DNA of 64,000 bases, from the NCBI RefSeq assembly GCF_900157305.1, contig NZ_LS974202.1, forward strand, positions 2,046,001 through 2,110,000, written 5' to 3'. Below the pieces are notes generated by a model that was given only the letters and a program-made list of their open reading frames with translations, ran no database searches and was not told the DNA's origin. Positions 13,893-47,451 of this stretch are shown here, piece by piece; position 1 is the stretch's first letter; each line of letters begins with the position of its first letter. The translations under genes and the position numbers were made by a program. This DNA comes from Mesotoga infera (lineage in GTDB: Bacteria > Thermotogota > Thermotogae > Petrotogales > Kosmotogaceae).

Positions 13893-14243
13893 ATGGATCA
13901 GTATCTTCAGATAACAATCATAGGTATCGCGGTTGTCTTCTTTACACTTGCGATTCTCTATTTCATATTCAACATATTGGGTAAACTTTTATCCAGGGAC
14001 GATAAAAAGAAGATCATGCCCAGAGTCGTTTCACCTTCTCCAGCGGCAGATTATGGAAGAATAGAAGAGAGGTCTTCGCAGGATGCCGAAGCCGTTGCCG
14101 CTATAAGTGCGGCTATACTGGAAATCATCGGACATGAAAACTTTCAGATAAAATCATTGAAACCGGTCCCGATAGCTCTGCCATCGGCCTGGAAAAGACG
14201 GGACCCTGTGGTTTACTGGAGACTAAGGAGGAGCAAGAATTGA
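13893..14243 (+). CDS. OadG-like gamma/delta subunit of a biotin-dependent decarboxylase
   Basis: The 116-residue protein has one membrane segment at about residues 6-29 and a charged cytoplasmic tail. The tail includes an AVAAISAAI stretch followed by conserved-looking WKRRDPVVYW. This architecture matches the small OadG/MmdD subunits that anchor the carboxyltransferase and biotin carrier to the membrane pump. Sequence conservation in this family is low, so the call also relies on position between the carboxyltransferase and the biotin carrier. It has a GAGGTGA site and overlaps the next gene's TTG start. Confidence 0.8.
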   Translation: MDQYLQITIIGIAVVFFTLAILYFIFNILGKLLSRDDKKKIMPRVVSPSPAADYGRIEERSSQDAEAVAAISAAILEIIGHENFQIKSLKPVPIALPSAWKRRDPVVYWRLRRSKN

Positions 14244-14665
14244 GAAGGTTCAGGGTTAGGGTTAATGGAAAAGAATACGACGTAGAAGTCGAAGAGTTGT
14301 CTTCGCAAACACAGGTCCAGCAGACGGTGAGTGAAACTCCGGAGGTGCCTGTAGCTGCCGGGAAAACGGAACCTGTGAAAAAGGTCGAAGAAGTTAAAAG
14401 GTCCGAACCGCAGGCCGGAGAGAGGTCTTCCCAATCGGGTGGTACCGGAGGAATTAATGTTGTCTCTCCGATGTCTGGAACGATCCTCGAGGTTTTCGTC
14501 TCCGTTGGCGATAGCGTTAGCATCGGTCAGAAACTGGTGATACTGGAAGCCATGAAGATGGAAAACAGCATTCTGGCGGAGAGTTCGGGAACGGTCCGAC
14601 AGGTTAAGATCCGTAAGGGCGACAATATAGATGCCGGAGAGACTATGATAGTTCTCGGATCATAA
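14240..14665 (+). CDS. Biotin carboxyl carrier protein of the decarboxylase
   Basis: The 141-residue protein carries the biotinylation motif EAMKMEN at residues 103-109, with the target lysine at 106. A proline/glutamate-rich linker (about residues 20-68) precedes the compact biotinyl domain. This matches GcdC/MmdC-type carriers that shuttle CO2. It starts at a TTG that overlaps the stop of the OadG-like gene. Its TAA stop lies inside the left arm of a perfect 17-bp hairpin. Confidence 0.93.
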   Translation: MRRFRVRVNGKEYDVEVEELSSQTQVQQTVSETPEVPVAAGKTEPVKKVEEVKRSEPQAGERSSQSGGTGGINVVSPMSGTILEVFVSVGDSVSIGQKLVILEAMKMENSILAESSGTVRQVKIRKGDNIDAGETMIVLGS

Positions 14666-14693
14666 AGGCGGATTCTTCCGCCTTTATGATCCG
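14656..14693 (+). terminator. Perfect 17-bp hairpin at the end of the methylmalonyl-CoA operon
   Basis: Two 17-base arms (14656-14672 and 14677-14693) are perfect reverse complements around the loop TTCT. The left arm contains the last codons and the TAA stop of the biotin carrier gene. There is no real U-tract afterwards, so it may act as a 3' stabilising or transcript-end hairpin rather than a textbook intrinsic terminator. The next gene starts only 16 bases later. Confidence 0.6.
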
Positions 14694-14708
14694 AAAAGTC
14701 TTTCCGTT

Positions 14709-15086
14709 ATGATCGATATGAAGTTTCCAGATGACAGGGAACTGGTAACTCTGTCAAGAATTCTTTCATTAAAGGTTTTCGGGGTCTTTCCCGATATACC
14801 TTTTTCGTTCAATTCGAGACTAAAAAGAGTTCTCGGCAGGCTTGTTTATCTGAAGGCTGCCGGTCGTTACAAGCCGTTGAGAATAGAAATAGCCTCCTCG
14901 ATTTACGCGAACGAAGAGCTTCTCAAAGGCACAATACTTCACGAGCTCTCGCATTATTATCTCATGATAAATGGAAGAGACTTCTCGCATTCTTCGCAAG
15001 ACTTCAAAAAACTCTCCAGTGAACTGGGCTTCGATATAAGAGTACCCGCAAAAGTCGAATCTTCCAGAGGATCGGAAAATAGTTGA
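14709..15086 (+). CDS. SprT-like zinc metalloprotease-domain protein
   Basis: The 125-residue protein contains HELSHYY, an HExxH zinc motif at residues 78-82, in the context GTILHELSHYYLMINGR. This resembles the SprT-like domain, found in DNA-protein crosslink proteases such as Spartan. The usual downstream zinc-ribbon is missing. The catalytic glutamate and both histidines are present. There is no clear ribosome binding site before ATG 14709 or 14718, and the upstream hairpin sits very close. The location next to the translesion polymerase operon loosely fits a DNA-repair role, which is an inference. Confidence 0.65.
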   Translation: MIDMKFPDDRELVTLSRILSLKVFGVFPDIPFSFNSRLKRVLGRLVYLKAAGRYKPLRIEIASSIYANEELLKGTILHELSHYYLMINGRDFSHSSQDFKKLSSELGFDIRVPAKVESSRGSENS

Positions 15087-15112
15087 TTTTTCCGGAAATC
15101 ATCTGCTATAAT
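15083..15112 (+). promoter_or_regulatory. Promoter of the small-ORF/dinB operon
   Basis: TTGATT at 15083-15088 and a perfect TATAAT at 15107-15112 are separated by 18 bases. The -10 box forms the first bases of the long palindrome that follows. The expected transcription start falls near 15119, inside the palindrome. Confidence 0.65.
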
Positions 15113-15142
15113 TATTTATACCATTTGGTATAAATAATTATA
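15107..15142. promoter_or_regulatory. 36-bp perfect palindrome, probable operator overlapping the -10 box
   Basis: Two 17-base arms (15107-15123 and 15126-15142) are perfect reverse complements with only TT between them; the core is TATACCATTTGGTATA. It starts at the -10 hexamer and ends about 14 bases before the next start codon. This is where a dimeric repressor would block initiation. The core is unlike the Gram-positive type LexA box (GAAC-N4-GTTC). If transcribed it would also form an AU-rich hairpin near the ribosome binding site. Confidence 0.6.
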
Positions 15143-15156
15143 ACGGTGATAGGAAT

Positions 15157-15396
15157 ATGACTCAAAAGAGGCTATCCAAAGCACTTGTATATTACAATGA
15201 AGAATATTTCATACCTATAAGGTTCAGTTATGATGGTATAAAAATTTTTATAAAGACCATTACTTCGAACTGGATAGAATCTGCGGGCAGAGAGAGAATA
15301 CACCACTTCTCGGTCCTCACCAACCTGGGAGCCTACAGTCTGGAGTTCCACGAAACACTGAAAAAATGGTACTGTCGTCCATTGGAGAACTGTTAA
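15157..15396 (+). CDS. Uncharacterised 79-residue protein cotranscribed with DNA polymerase IV
   Basis: I do not recognise this protein. It is basic at the N-terminus (MTQKRLSKALVYY) and rich in aromatic residues. It reads like a small beta-rich domain (YFIPIRFSYDGIKIFIK) with a C-terminal WYCRPLENC tail and no membrane segment. Upstream is GGTGATAGGAAT as a modest ribosome binding site. The palindromic promoter precedes it, and dinB starts one base after its stop. The tight coupling suggests a role linked to polymerase IV or its control. Confidence 0.7.
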   Translation: MTQKRLSKALVYYNEEYFIPIRFSYDGIKIFIKTITSNWIESAGRERIHHFSVLTNLGAYSLEFHETLKKWYCRPLENC

Positions 15397-15397
15397 A

Positions 15398-16636
15398 ATG
15401 ACGGGCATAGAATACATTGCTCACATAGATATGGACGCTTTCTTCGCGAGTGTAGAGCAAGCGGCCAACCCCTGCTTGAAAGGACGCCCTATCGCCGTCA
15501 CCGGAATCGGTAAACGCCATTCGGTAGTTACTTCGGCCAGTTACGAAGCTAAAAGATTCGGTGTGAGATCAGGAATGCCCTTCTTTCAGGCCGTTAAGCT
15601 CTGTCCCGATTTGATGGCAGTCAAGGTGCAATCAAGGAAGTACGAATATGTTTCCAGAGAAATCATGAAAATGCTCACCAGCGTTTCCCCGAGAATAATG
15701 GTGACAAGTATAGATGAGGCTTACGTCGACCTAGGTTTCTACACAAGGCTCGAGGAGGCTCTGGAGAGTTTCATAAAGTTCAAACACGATTTGAAAGAGA
15801 GTTTCGGGATAACGGCCTCTGTGGGGGTTACTGTCAATCCAGTGCTTTCCAAAATCGCGAGCGATTATTTGAAGCCGAACGGTTTTGTAGTCGTGAAGAA
15901 AGGTCTAGAAAGGACTTTTCTGAAGCAGATACCTCTTGGCGACGTCCCGGGCATCGGGAAGCATACACTGATCAAACTGGAATCGATGGGTTACAAAACG
16001 GTCGGAGAAGTTCTCGAGGAGTTCGAAAGAAATCCCATAAAACTCTACACCGCTTTCGGGAACAGCTTCTTGGGACTAATTCAGAGTCTCTCAAAAAATA
16101 GTTTTTCTCGGGAGATTTTTTTCAGAGAGGAACCACCCAAATCCATAAGCCATTCCATGACTCTTTCTGTGGATATCACCGATCGGGAACTGGTGATGAG
16201 GGTAGCCAACTTCCTGGCCGCCAGAGTTGTTTACAGACTTGGGAGATGTTCTATGGAAAGTGCGGGACTCACTGTTCATCTGAAGTACTCCGACGGAAAG
16301 TTGCGCAGACTTTCGAAAAGACTCGGTTCCACGATCTCCTCCATAAAGGATATGACCGAAATCCTGCCGTGGATGATCGAATCCATCTGGAAGGGTGAGG
16401 CCATCAGGGCCGTCGGCATTACCTGCTGGAACCTCACCGAAAAGAAGAACGGAGAGCAACTCTCACTCTTCGAAGCGAAGAGAAACCCGCTGGAAACGGC
16501 GCTGGAGATCGAAAAAAAGTTTGGAGAGTATTCGATCTTTCCCGGCAATATACTATTCCTTCCCGGAATCAGAAGAGTCGAGAAACCTTCCGATCTCCAT
16601 TACCAGGGCTTCTGCCGTCGCCAGGTTAGTTGCTAA
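15398..16636 (+). CDS. dinB: DNA polymerase IV (Y-family translesion polymerase)
   Basis: The 412-residue protein starts with the Y-family signature [13 protein letters not shown], followed by [18 protein letters not shown]. The second acidic catalytic motif is [10 protein letters not shown]. The thumb has the helix-hairpin-helix stretch [14 protein letters not shown], and a little-finger domain follows. It copies damaged DNA in the cytoplasm. There is no obvious beta-clamp motif at the extreme C-terminus, although QLSLF at about residues 360-364 inside the tail looks like a clamp-binding peptide. The final 28 codons overlap methylglyoxal synthase on the opposite strand. Confidence 0.95.
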
Positions 16637-16960
16637 GGGTTTGTTGTGAACATCGCAGACTCTGAGCAGGGCGGTAACATCCGGTTCGTGGGGCTGTGCC
16701 GTGAGAGGGTCTCTGAGAAAGATTACGAAGTCTACCTCGTCGTTGGCAATCAAAGAACCGATCTGAAGGTCTCCACCGAGTGGACCGGATTTGAAGGAAG
16801 TCAACTCTAGTTTGACTTTCTCTTTCAGAAGGTTTCCGGTTGTACTGGTAGCGTAGAGCCGGCAGTTTTTGAAAACGTCCAGATGTTCTCTGACGAACAT
16901 TATGAGATCGATTTTCTTTTTATCGTGTGCTATGAGGGCAACTCTTGGAATCTTGCTCAT
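16553..16960 (-). CDS. mgsA: Methylglyoxal synthase
   Basis: The enzyme converts dihydroxyacetone phosphate to methylglyoxal and phosphate, a glycolytic overflow route. The 135-residue product has the family opening [14 protein letters not shown], the phosphate-binding TSTTGNLL, and the block [14 protein letters not shown] followed by [14 protein letters not shown], which holds the catalytic aspartate. I chose ATG 16958-16960 because AGGAGGT lies a few bases upstream and the protein then starts like its relatives. An in-frame start further upstream would add 13 residues. Its 3' end overlaps dinB by 84 bases. Confidence 0.95.
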
Positions 16961-17059
16961 ATTTACCTCCTTTGATTTCCTGAAAAGATGATACCACAAT
17001 GCGATCTTTAGCGACCGGGAGGCAGATCGAGTTATCGAATTGTTGAATTGAGGTGACCT

Positions 17060-45943: not shown

Positions 45944-47451
45944 CTGGCTTCTCTCCCTTCATTTACTTTTTTCGTCTTGAGGTACCTTTCCGGTTTGATA
46001 CCACCGGCCATCGCCGTCAGGACCGTTCTCGAGACAACTATGTTGGTAAACATAGCTCCGATTACACCGATTATGAGAGTTATTGCGAAGCCTTTAACGG
46101 TTCCCGTGCCGAAGTAGAAGAGAACTATACCGGCAAGTATAGTAGTGAGATTGGCATCGAAGATCGTCCAGATGACTTTCGAGAAGGCCGAATCTATAGC
46201 ATTTTCCGTGGTTTTTCCCAGCCGGAACTCTTCCTTTATTCTTTCGAAGATGAGAACGTTTCCGTCGACGGTCATACCTATCGTAAGAACGATACCGGCA
46301 ATACCGGGCAGTGTTAGTATCGAGCCGGTCAACGAAACCATACCCATCAATAGAACACCGTTGTAAAGCAGAGCAATGTTGGCTACGATGCCCATCTTTC
46401 CGTAAATGACCAGCATATATATCATTATCAGGATCAACCCACCGATTCCTGCCCAGAGGCTGGCGTTGATGATGTCTCTACCGAGAGTCGGCGAGAGAAC
46501 GCGTTTGTTGAAAGCCGAAAGCTCGACCGGCAGGTTTCCGCTTCCGACCAGAATGGAAACTTCTTTCGCCTCGTCAAGAGAATTTAACCCTTCTATGACA
46601 GCGTTTCCGTCACTGATCTGTGTCTGAACCAGAGGGGCGATTATTACATTCTCGTCGAGAACGATCGCCAGTCTCTTTCTGATATCGGTGTCGGTGTAAG
46701 TGGATTTGACAGATGTGATCTCCCTGAAAGTCTTAGAACCTTCGGAGTTGAACTTCAGTGAGACCATGAATCTACCCTGCCCAGGTCTGGGCTGGTTGTT
46801 AATCAAGGATTTGGCTTCTGTGACAACGCTGCCGTCAAGCTCTAGATAGCTTGACCCGACGGCGATTCTGGGACTTATAAAGTACCAGGTGTTGTTCTGA
46901 ACTCCATTAACGTATTCACCGAAATGGAGTTCTTTTATCCAGAAAGGCTCTCCGCCCTGGAGTTTTCGCTTGCTTATTTCCAGAGACATTCCCGCGGGAA
47001 TTGATGGAGTCGAACTCGACGTCTCTATGGCGAGAACATCGGCGAAATAAAGCTTACCTGTCTTTCCGACAAGACTCTCAGCGCGCAACACATCTGTGAT
47101 ACCCGGGATCTGGACCCTAACCCTGACGGGAGGTATATCCTCGCCGAAAGAGATAGCCGTCGTGATCTTTTCGACGGTTGCTTCGGTGAAACCGGCAGCA
47201 TCCAGCCTGGTTCTCAAAACTTCTATGACTCTGTCGGCCAGAGCGCTCATTTCTTCTTTCGAAACGTCTGTGACCATCTGGTACTCAAGAAGGGCCCCTC
47301 CCTTAATATCGAGACCCAGCTTGATATTGGCAGCGATCTTATCCATGAAACTGCTGCCGGATGGAGCATTACCGTGCGGTATAAGCAGGGGTAGCAAGGC
47401 TCCTACAAGTACCACAACGGTTACGATCAAGCGTTTTTGGTTTGCTCTCAT
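45940..47451 (-). CDS. secD: Protein translocase subunit SecD
   Basis: SecD is the first half of the SecDF export motor. The roughly 503-residue protein has a long periplasmic domain between the first and second membrane segments. The first segment is followed by LGLDIKGGALLEYQM, and the RND-type membrane part ends with GMTVDGNVLIFERIKEEFR. I chose ATG 47451 because the protein then starts with a basic stretch before the first helix. An upstream TTG 42 bases earlier is possible; ribosome binding signals for both are weak. Cotranscribed with yajC and secF. Confidence 0.95.
   Translation of the reverse strand: MRANQKRLIVTVVVLVGALLPLLIPHGNAPSGSSFMDKIAANIKLGLDIKGGALLEYQMVTDVSKEEMSALADRVIEVLRTRLDAAGFTEATVEKITTAISFGEDIPPVRVRVQIPGITDVLRAESLVGKTGKLYFADVLAIETSSSTPSIPAGMSLEISKRKLQGGEPFWIKELHFGEYVNGVQNNTWYFISPRIAVGSSYLELDGSVVTEAKSLINNQPRPGQGRFMVSLKFNSEGSKTFREITSVKSTYTDTDIRKRLAIVLDENVIIAPLVQTQISDGNAVIEGLNSLDEAKEVSILVGSGNLPVELSAFNKRVLSPTLGRDIINASLWAGIGGLILIMIYMLVIYGKMGIVANIALLYNGVLLMGMVSLTGSILTLPGIAGIVLTIGMTVDGNVLIFERIKEEFRLGKTTENAIDSAFSKVIWTIFDANLTTILAGIVLFYFGTGTVKGFAITLIIGVIGAMFTNIVVSRTVLTAMAGGIKPERYLKTKKVNEGREAR

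Follow-up and report, generated by a model that had tools for sequence, protein, structure and literature searches.

The small-ORF/dinB operon

We analyzed a 64,000-nucleotide window of the Mesotoga infera genome (G000, one contig of 2.97 Mb) that contains an operon for a translesion DNA polymerase. The first gene of the operon is a 79-aa ORF of no known family (15157..15396, plus strand). The second (15398..16636, plus strand), which starts 1 nt beyond the end of this ORF, is a dinB-type translesion DNA polymerase gene; its product carries IMS and IMS_C domains, and DNA polymerase IV models match it at scores under their cut-offs. An SprT-like protein gene (14709-15086) lies upstream of the 79-aa ORF. 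On the opposite strand, a gene with an MGS-like domain (16553-16999, minus strand) shares 84 bp with the 3' end of dinB.

The operon promoter (15083..15112, plus strand) was identified by a consensus scan and by invariance among orthologues. It comprises the -35 box TTGATT (15083-15088), an 18-nt spacer and the -10 box TATAAT preceded by TG, with 10 out of 12 consensus matches. The region contains two promoter-like matches, a number not above that of shuffled sequences (mean 2.6).

Among 103 genomes of the phylum we detected the small ORF in 14, each a member of the window's family (17 genomes), and a DinB relative in 35. The search for loci related to DinB used one close relative (L090) and left out 79 distant ones. 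Matches to both the small ORF and DinB are absent from G025 (98% complete, 7% contamination), the sister of G000 and of G026, its nearest relative in the genome set; this lineage may have lost the operon.

We compared the 79-aa protein with the Pfam, NCBIfam and PDB databases and obtained no sequence match. Its structural model, built from a two-row alignment, is all strand (pLDDT 65), and Foldseek returned nothing for it at E ≤ 0.001. On the basis of this fold and the lack of Foldseek matches at that threshold, we rejected the small ORF as a helix-turn-helix repressor. Speculatively, the protein may not be the DNA-binding component itself but its partner, or a sensor.

The palindrome and its conserved left half

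A 36-bp inverted repeat (15107..15142, no strand) spans the start region of the operon. Its two 17-nt arms (15107-15123 and 15126-15142) are 100% complementary and flank a 2-nt centre, TT, so that the perfection is limited to the arms; the core, TATACCATTTGGTATA, occupies 15117-15132. The left arm opens with TATAAT, which confirms the preliminary description of two 17-base arms that begin in the -10 box. The window holds five inverted repeats with arms ≥ 10 and a gap ≤ 8. By comparison, 60 first-order Markov simulations of the window gave a mean of 0.4 and a longest arm of 11, with none at 17. Pairing at 17 positions by chance has a probability of about 2e-9 at the local composition. The remaining four inverted repeats have a higher G+C content than the 36-bp repeat, and we take them, judged by eye, to be terminators. 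The longest in the window (14655-14694), an 18-bp repeat with a 4-nt loop and a terminator-like look, follows an ORF at 14240-14665 and precedes the SprT-like gene. Folded as DNA, one strand of the palindrome gives -10.7 kcal/mol (z -6.35). We did not retain a cruciform as an explanation because a good DNA fold merely restates the palindrome.

We compared the 14 orthologous promoters of the family. All of them contain an extended -10 box, TGnTATAmT, followed by N4-TATACC. The gapless columns that are invariant in the 14 promoters are TT of the -35 box, TG, TATA and the last T of the -10 box, one further T, and TATACC. The longer element TTTATACC (15115..15122, plus strand), which lies over the -10/start region, accompanies the small ORF in 14 out of 14 genomes and is exact in 13 promoters, that of G020 reading ATATACC. 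TATACC after a -10 box is not a general promoter feature: of 59 TATAMT strings in the window, the only ones followed by N4-TATACC are the two that lie in the arms of the palindrome, and among nine extended -10 strings, only that of the dinB operon has it. Across the family, TATAMTWWWWTATACC was found 24 times, against 2 for the control. Sixteen of these occurrences are at the dinB operon (one in each of the 14 promoters, and a further one in the right arm in two genomes), and 8 are elsewhere.

The right half is distributed differently. The 36-bp repeat is identical in G026; none of the remaining 12 orthologous promoters has it in this form. GGTATA at the N4 spacing is restricted to four of the 14 promoters, those of G000, G026, G032 and G033. 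In a tree of UvrB, RecA and DinB, G000 and G026 group together (1.0) inside the genus of the window, whereas G032 and G033 group together (1.0) in a separate clade with genera g3 and g4 (0.715). This separation implies two gains of the N4 dyad or several losses. In the two species of genus g5 the spacer of the dyad varies, and TATACC and GGTATA are unchanged.

An alignment with five of the six other genus genomes that have the small ORF showed that the promoter of G000 and G026 is shared through TATACC and thereafter differs in sequence and length. The right arm contains an inverted copy of the element, GGTATAAA (15127..15134, minus strand), at 4-bp spacing, as an extra site specific to this lineage. 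It was probably made as a template-switch copy of the left arm, a class of quasipalindrome mutation treated in PMC7202029 and PMC8794818. G000 and G026 are identical across 15048-15150, even though four genes nearby show third-position differences of 25, 17, 11 and 16%. The whole promoter block seems to be constrained; the right arm and centre, at 19 nt, are too short for a claim of constraint of their own.

We searched for the core elsewhere. TATACC-N4-GGTATA occurs exactly once in the 2.97-Mb genome, at this locus. Copies with up to two mismatches number 119, compared with 122 for the reversed control. Seven copies have one mismatch, and the six inspected (all except that at window position 46126) are inside long ORFs. 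In viral contigs, 40 stretches contain TTTATACC-N4-GGTATAAA. The preliminary description had suggested that translesion polymerase expression may be under an unfamiliar repressor, and had named absence of the palindrome from orthologous operons or from the rest of the genome as evidence against a regulon. We reject a regulon of the palindrome core, given its single exact copy, the control-level number of near-copies, the one-mismatch copies within ORFs, and the lack of GGTATA in 10 out of 14 orthologous promoters. The palindrome is mostly absent at orthologues and has no exact copies elsewhere, which is largely the outcome named in advance as contrary. What survives of the suggestion is a constrained element in the dinB-operon promoter.

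Related motifs were also examined. GNTATA-N6-TATACC gave 44 matches in 17 genomes and was rejected as a family-wide SOS box: the matches that we read away from the operon are mostly internal to ORFs or at unrelated genes, and include a conserved, coding-looking Mesotoga site and a resolvase-like gene. In three g4 genomes, a perfect GGTATA-N6-TATACC dyad adjoins a GyrI-like gene (L197, L198 and L199), with an acetyltransferase-like ORF on its other flank in two of the three; it is likely the operator of a different regulator. Near matches to TGNTATAMTWWTTTATACC in G000 number 27, against 9 for the control, and among 15 inspected by eye only the one at uvrB is at a repair gene. TCTTACACTTTTTTATCCC occurs six times in G000 (for example at C1:1460391, L296), by appearance within a repeated transposase-like ORF. 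Overall, the genome searches found no other G000 gene that clearly has the element, and the regulator is for this reason not traceable via a regulon.

An inverted copy within the first gene

The conserved unit proved to be the left half of the reported dyad together with a second site that the preliminary description had not reported. An exact reverse complement of the promoter element, GGTATAAA, lies inside the 79-aa ORF (15235..15242, minus strand), where it is covered by the codons GAT-GGT-ATA-AAA (D-G-I-K). A repeat finder pairs the promoter and intragenic regions at 83%. The intragenic copy is present in 11 out of 14 genomes, eight from the genus of the window and three from g4. The small proteins of g5 and g3 have other residues at this place. 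As the protein sequence differs in g5, the absence of the site there, which accounts for two of the three exceptions, is not independent of the protein. G019 has the promoter element, but the 700 bp that follow its -10 box contain no GGTATA.

We assessed whether codon usage at the site is constrained beyond the protein. Across the 11 genomes, the small ORF has 24 degenerate columns at which the protein is invariant. Four of them use a single codon, and these are adjacent: GAT, GGT, ATA and AAA. The dinB gene of the same 11 genomes served as the control. Only 3 out of 142 such columns are single-codon, none of them adjacent, and a single codon is used at 0 out of 48 fourfold columns and 0 out of 4 isoleucine columns. 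Because the codon constraint exceeds that of dinB, selection at the intragenic site appears to act on the DNA and not on the protein alone.

The pair is confined to the operon. TTTATACC-N90-120-GGTATAAA was found once each in 10 out of 17 family genomes, always at the dinB operon, and its reversed control was found in 2 genomes. G020 was missed by this search because its promoter reads ATATACC. The distance from the promoter site to the intragenic site, start to start, is 111 bp in six genomes, 119 in two, 120 in two and 121 in one. The distances, 111 to 121 bp, differ by roughly one helical turn, no more than a hint. A second nearby copy under nucleotide constraint in 11 out of 14 genomes is the pattern that a two-operator arrangement predicts.

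A two-site model and its alternatives

We propose that the conserved paired element, older than the palindrome, probably controls the error-prone DNA polymerase in this family. We give about even chances to the fuller model, in which a DNA-binding regulator uses a promoter operator and an inverted intragenic operator and the palindrome is a lineage-specific doubling. Operator 1, TTTATACC, would overlie the -10/start region of the operon promoter, and operator 2, GGTATAAA, would lie inverted 111-121 bp further on, within the first gene. One DNA-binding protein would fill both sites, and a dimeric repressor is the likeliest candidate; once bound, the protein would block RNA polymerase at the promoter, and the intragenic site would add occupancy or a loop. 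The lineage of G000 and G026 would have doubled the promoter operator by adding a second, exactly inverted copy 4 bp away, and so produced the 36-bp palindrome. Genus g5, which is without the intragenic site, has a shorter TATACC-N4-GGTATA dyad at the promoter place. We infer protein binding, repression and joint action of the sites from their conservation and arrangement.

LexA as the regulator is possible but unsupported. A family-specific SOS box, which would make dinB an ordinary SOS gene, is in our judgement unlikely, even though a LexA DNA-binding domain is encoded in 17 out of 17 family genomes, dinB is commonly an SOS gene, and the N4 spacing is shared with the Gram-positive box. Known LexA boxes include GAAC-N4-GTTC in Gram-positive bacteria and CTGT-N8-ACAG in E. 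coli. For Petrotoga, the box GANTN6GANNAC is given in PMC3789691, which cites Mazon 2006. Five LexA box patterns, four of them taken from general knowledge, have no exact match between -100 and +80 around the -10 box in any of the 14 promoters, which bears out the earlier statement that the core is not a known SOS box. With one mismatch allowed, 5 out of 14 promoters match, with none in common beyond G000 and G026. In its favor, uvrB of G000 and G026 is preceded by a related dyad: the sole other TATAMTWWWWTATACC in each of these genomes reads GGTATATAATATTATACT towards uvrB (loci L205 and L082, at G000:C1 near 160010, and L089). This dyad is, however, not retained in other Mesotoga. We could read 12 out of 13 full-length uvrB loci, with 4 out of 17 genomes having no full-length uvrB match. 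The five other genus loci have a different sequence, GGTGTA-AAATTG-TTYRCC-like in most, and the five from g3-g5 are coding in appearance. Against LexA, moreover, the 300 nt upstream of lexA, counted from the matched domain, lack TATACC and GGTATA in 17 out of 17 genomes, coding-like sequence precedes recA in all 15 readable loci (of 16), and the two-site pair is found at dinB only. As a separate observation, in most of the 17 lexA loci (L057-L073) another ORF, judged GyrA-like by eye, precedes lexA or overlaps it, so that lexA may be without a promoter of its own.

A further possibility, less probable than the two-site model although the strongest of its competitors, is that the right arm has no function and is a neutral by-product of template switching on a functional promoter. 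It stands in place of an unrelated, shorter sequence of other Mesotoga, it duplicates even the -10 box, a part dispensable for an operator, its pairing is far beyond chance (about 2e-9 for 17 positions), and the palindrome is confined to two related species. The right arm is nevertheless the same in G000 and G026 despite the 11-25% third-position difference in four neighbouring genes, and the g5 dyad has equal spacing. A neutral right arm is compatible with the best explanation of the left half. We regard it as improbable that the element acts in RNA, as a 5'-terminal hairpin AUACC-N4-GGUAU that shields the message or tunes its translation. The 4-nt spacing would suit a loop, and for transcripts whose first base is the A of ATACC, the probability of the local hairpin is 0.72-0.97 in the four N4-dyad genomes. 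The left half, however, is kept in 10 genomes without an N4 partner, a conserved TTT precedes the expected start, and the 83-nt leader is no more stable when folded than its shuffled versions (z -0.77). Long-range pairing between promoter and intragenic site is unsupported: from the same start its probability is ≤ 0.006 in the nine genomes whose sole partner is the intragenic site, and it reaches 0.43 in one genome when an earlier start is assumed. It is somewhat less improbable, yet still doubtful, that the intragenic GGTATAAA serves dinB as an internal promoter of the extended -10 type (TGGTATAAA) and not as an operator. TG and TATAAA are present at the site in 11 out of 11 genomes, but the best -35 matches only 2-3 of 6 positions in each and the last T of the -10 box is missing in all; an internal promoter also leaves unexplained why 8 bases match the promoter element exactly. 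Least probable of all, we consider, are face-to-face promoters that would tune the operon by antisense initiation or by competition between polymerases. A minus-strand site (15165-15137) combines the inverted TATAAT at the right end of the palindrome with TTGAGT, for 10 out of 12 matches; promoter-like matches are, however, not above shuffles, and the antisense site is present only alongside the right arm. At the intragenic site, internal and antisense promoters are both weak candidates. Because long-range RNA pairing and the internal and antisense promoters are each poorly supported, the protein-binding, two-site reading fits best.

A more far-reaching version of the two-site model is a long shot: the polymerase operon would run outside SOS, under a dedicated regulator that bridges both operators, possibly with involvement of the co-transcribed 79-aa protein in regulation, and a template switch would have strengthened the operator of one lineage. 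Error-prone polymerases are usually assumed to be controlled by LexA. A two-part operator that is conserved and confined to one operon, in a family with LexA, would suggest that mutagenesis is regulated separately in a deep-branching bacterial group. Literature titles on LexA/SOS in Thermotogales and Petrotoga, on Mesotoga promoters and on dinB in Thermotoga revealed no dinB operator in the family, in a search with most subscription journals outside its scope. Our analysis supplies an exact, testable motif, TTTATACC with an intragenic GGTATAAA. The conserved site pair is more solid and more testable than the palindrome, and the case illustrates that a striking palindrome may mislead when only half of it is the conserved unit.

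We compared the locus with known systems. It resembles quasipalindrome template switching, as presented in PMC7202029 and PMC8794818, in having a perfect inverted copy of adjacent sequence in one lineage; unlike documented mutations of this kind, the origin proposed here comes from comparison, with no intermediate seen. Like LexA/SOS boxes, the element lies over a dinB promoter and forms an N4 dyad in 4 out of 14 genomes, but the five listed patterns have no exact match in any of the 14 promoters and the element is missing upstream of lexA in all 17 genomes. In the lac (O1/O2) and gal systems of E. coli, a promoter with a main operator is accompanied by an auxiliary operator within the gene. 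The sites described here differ from these in that they are inverted copies of 8 bp and do not form full dyads in most genomes, and in being candidates known from sequence. As in lac and gal, a site in the start region is joined by a second copy about 110 bp away in the first gene, and both candidate sites are under nucleotide constraint.
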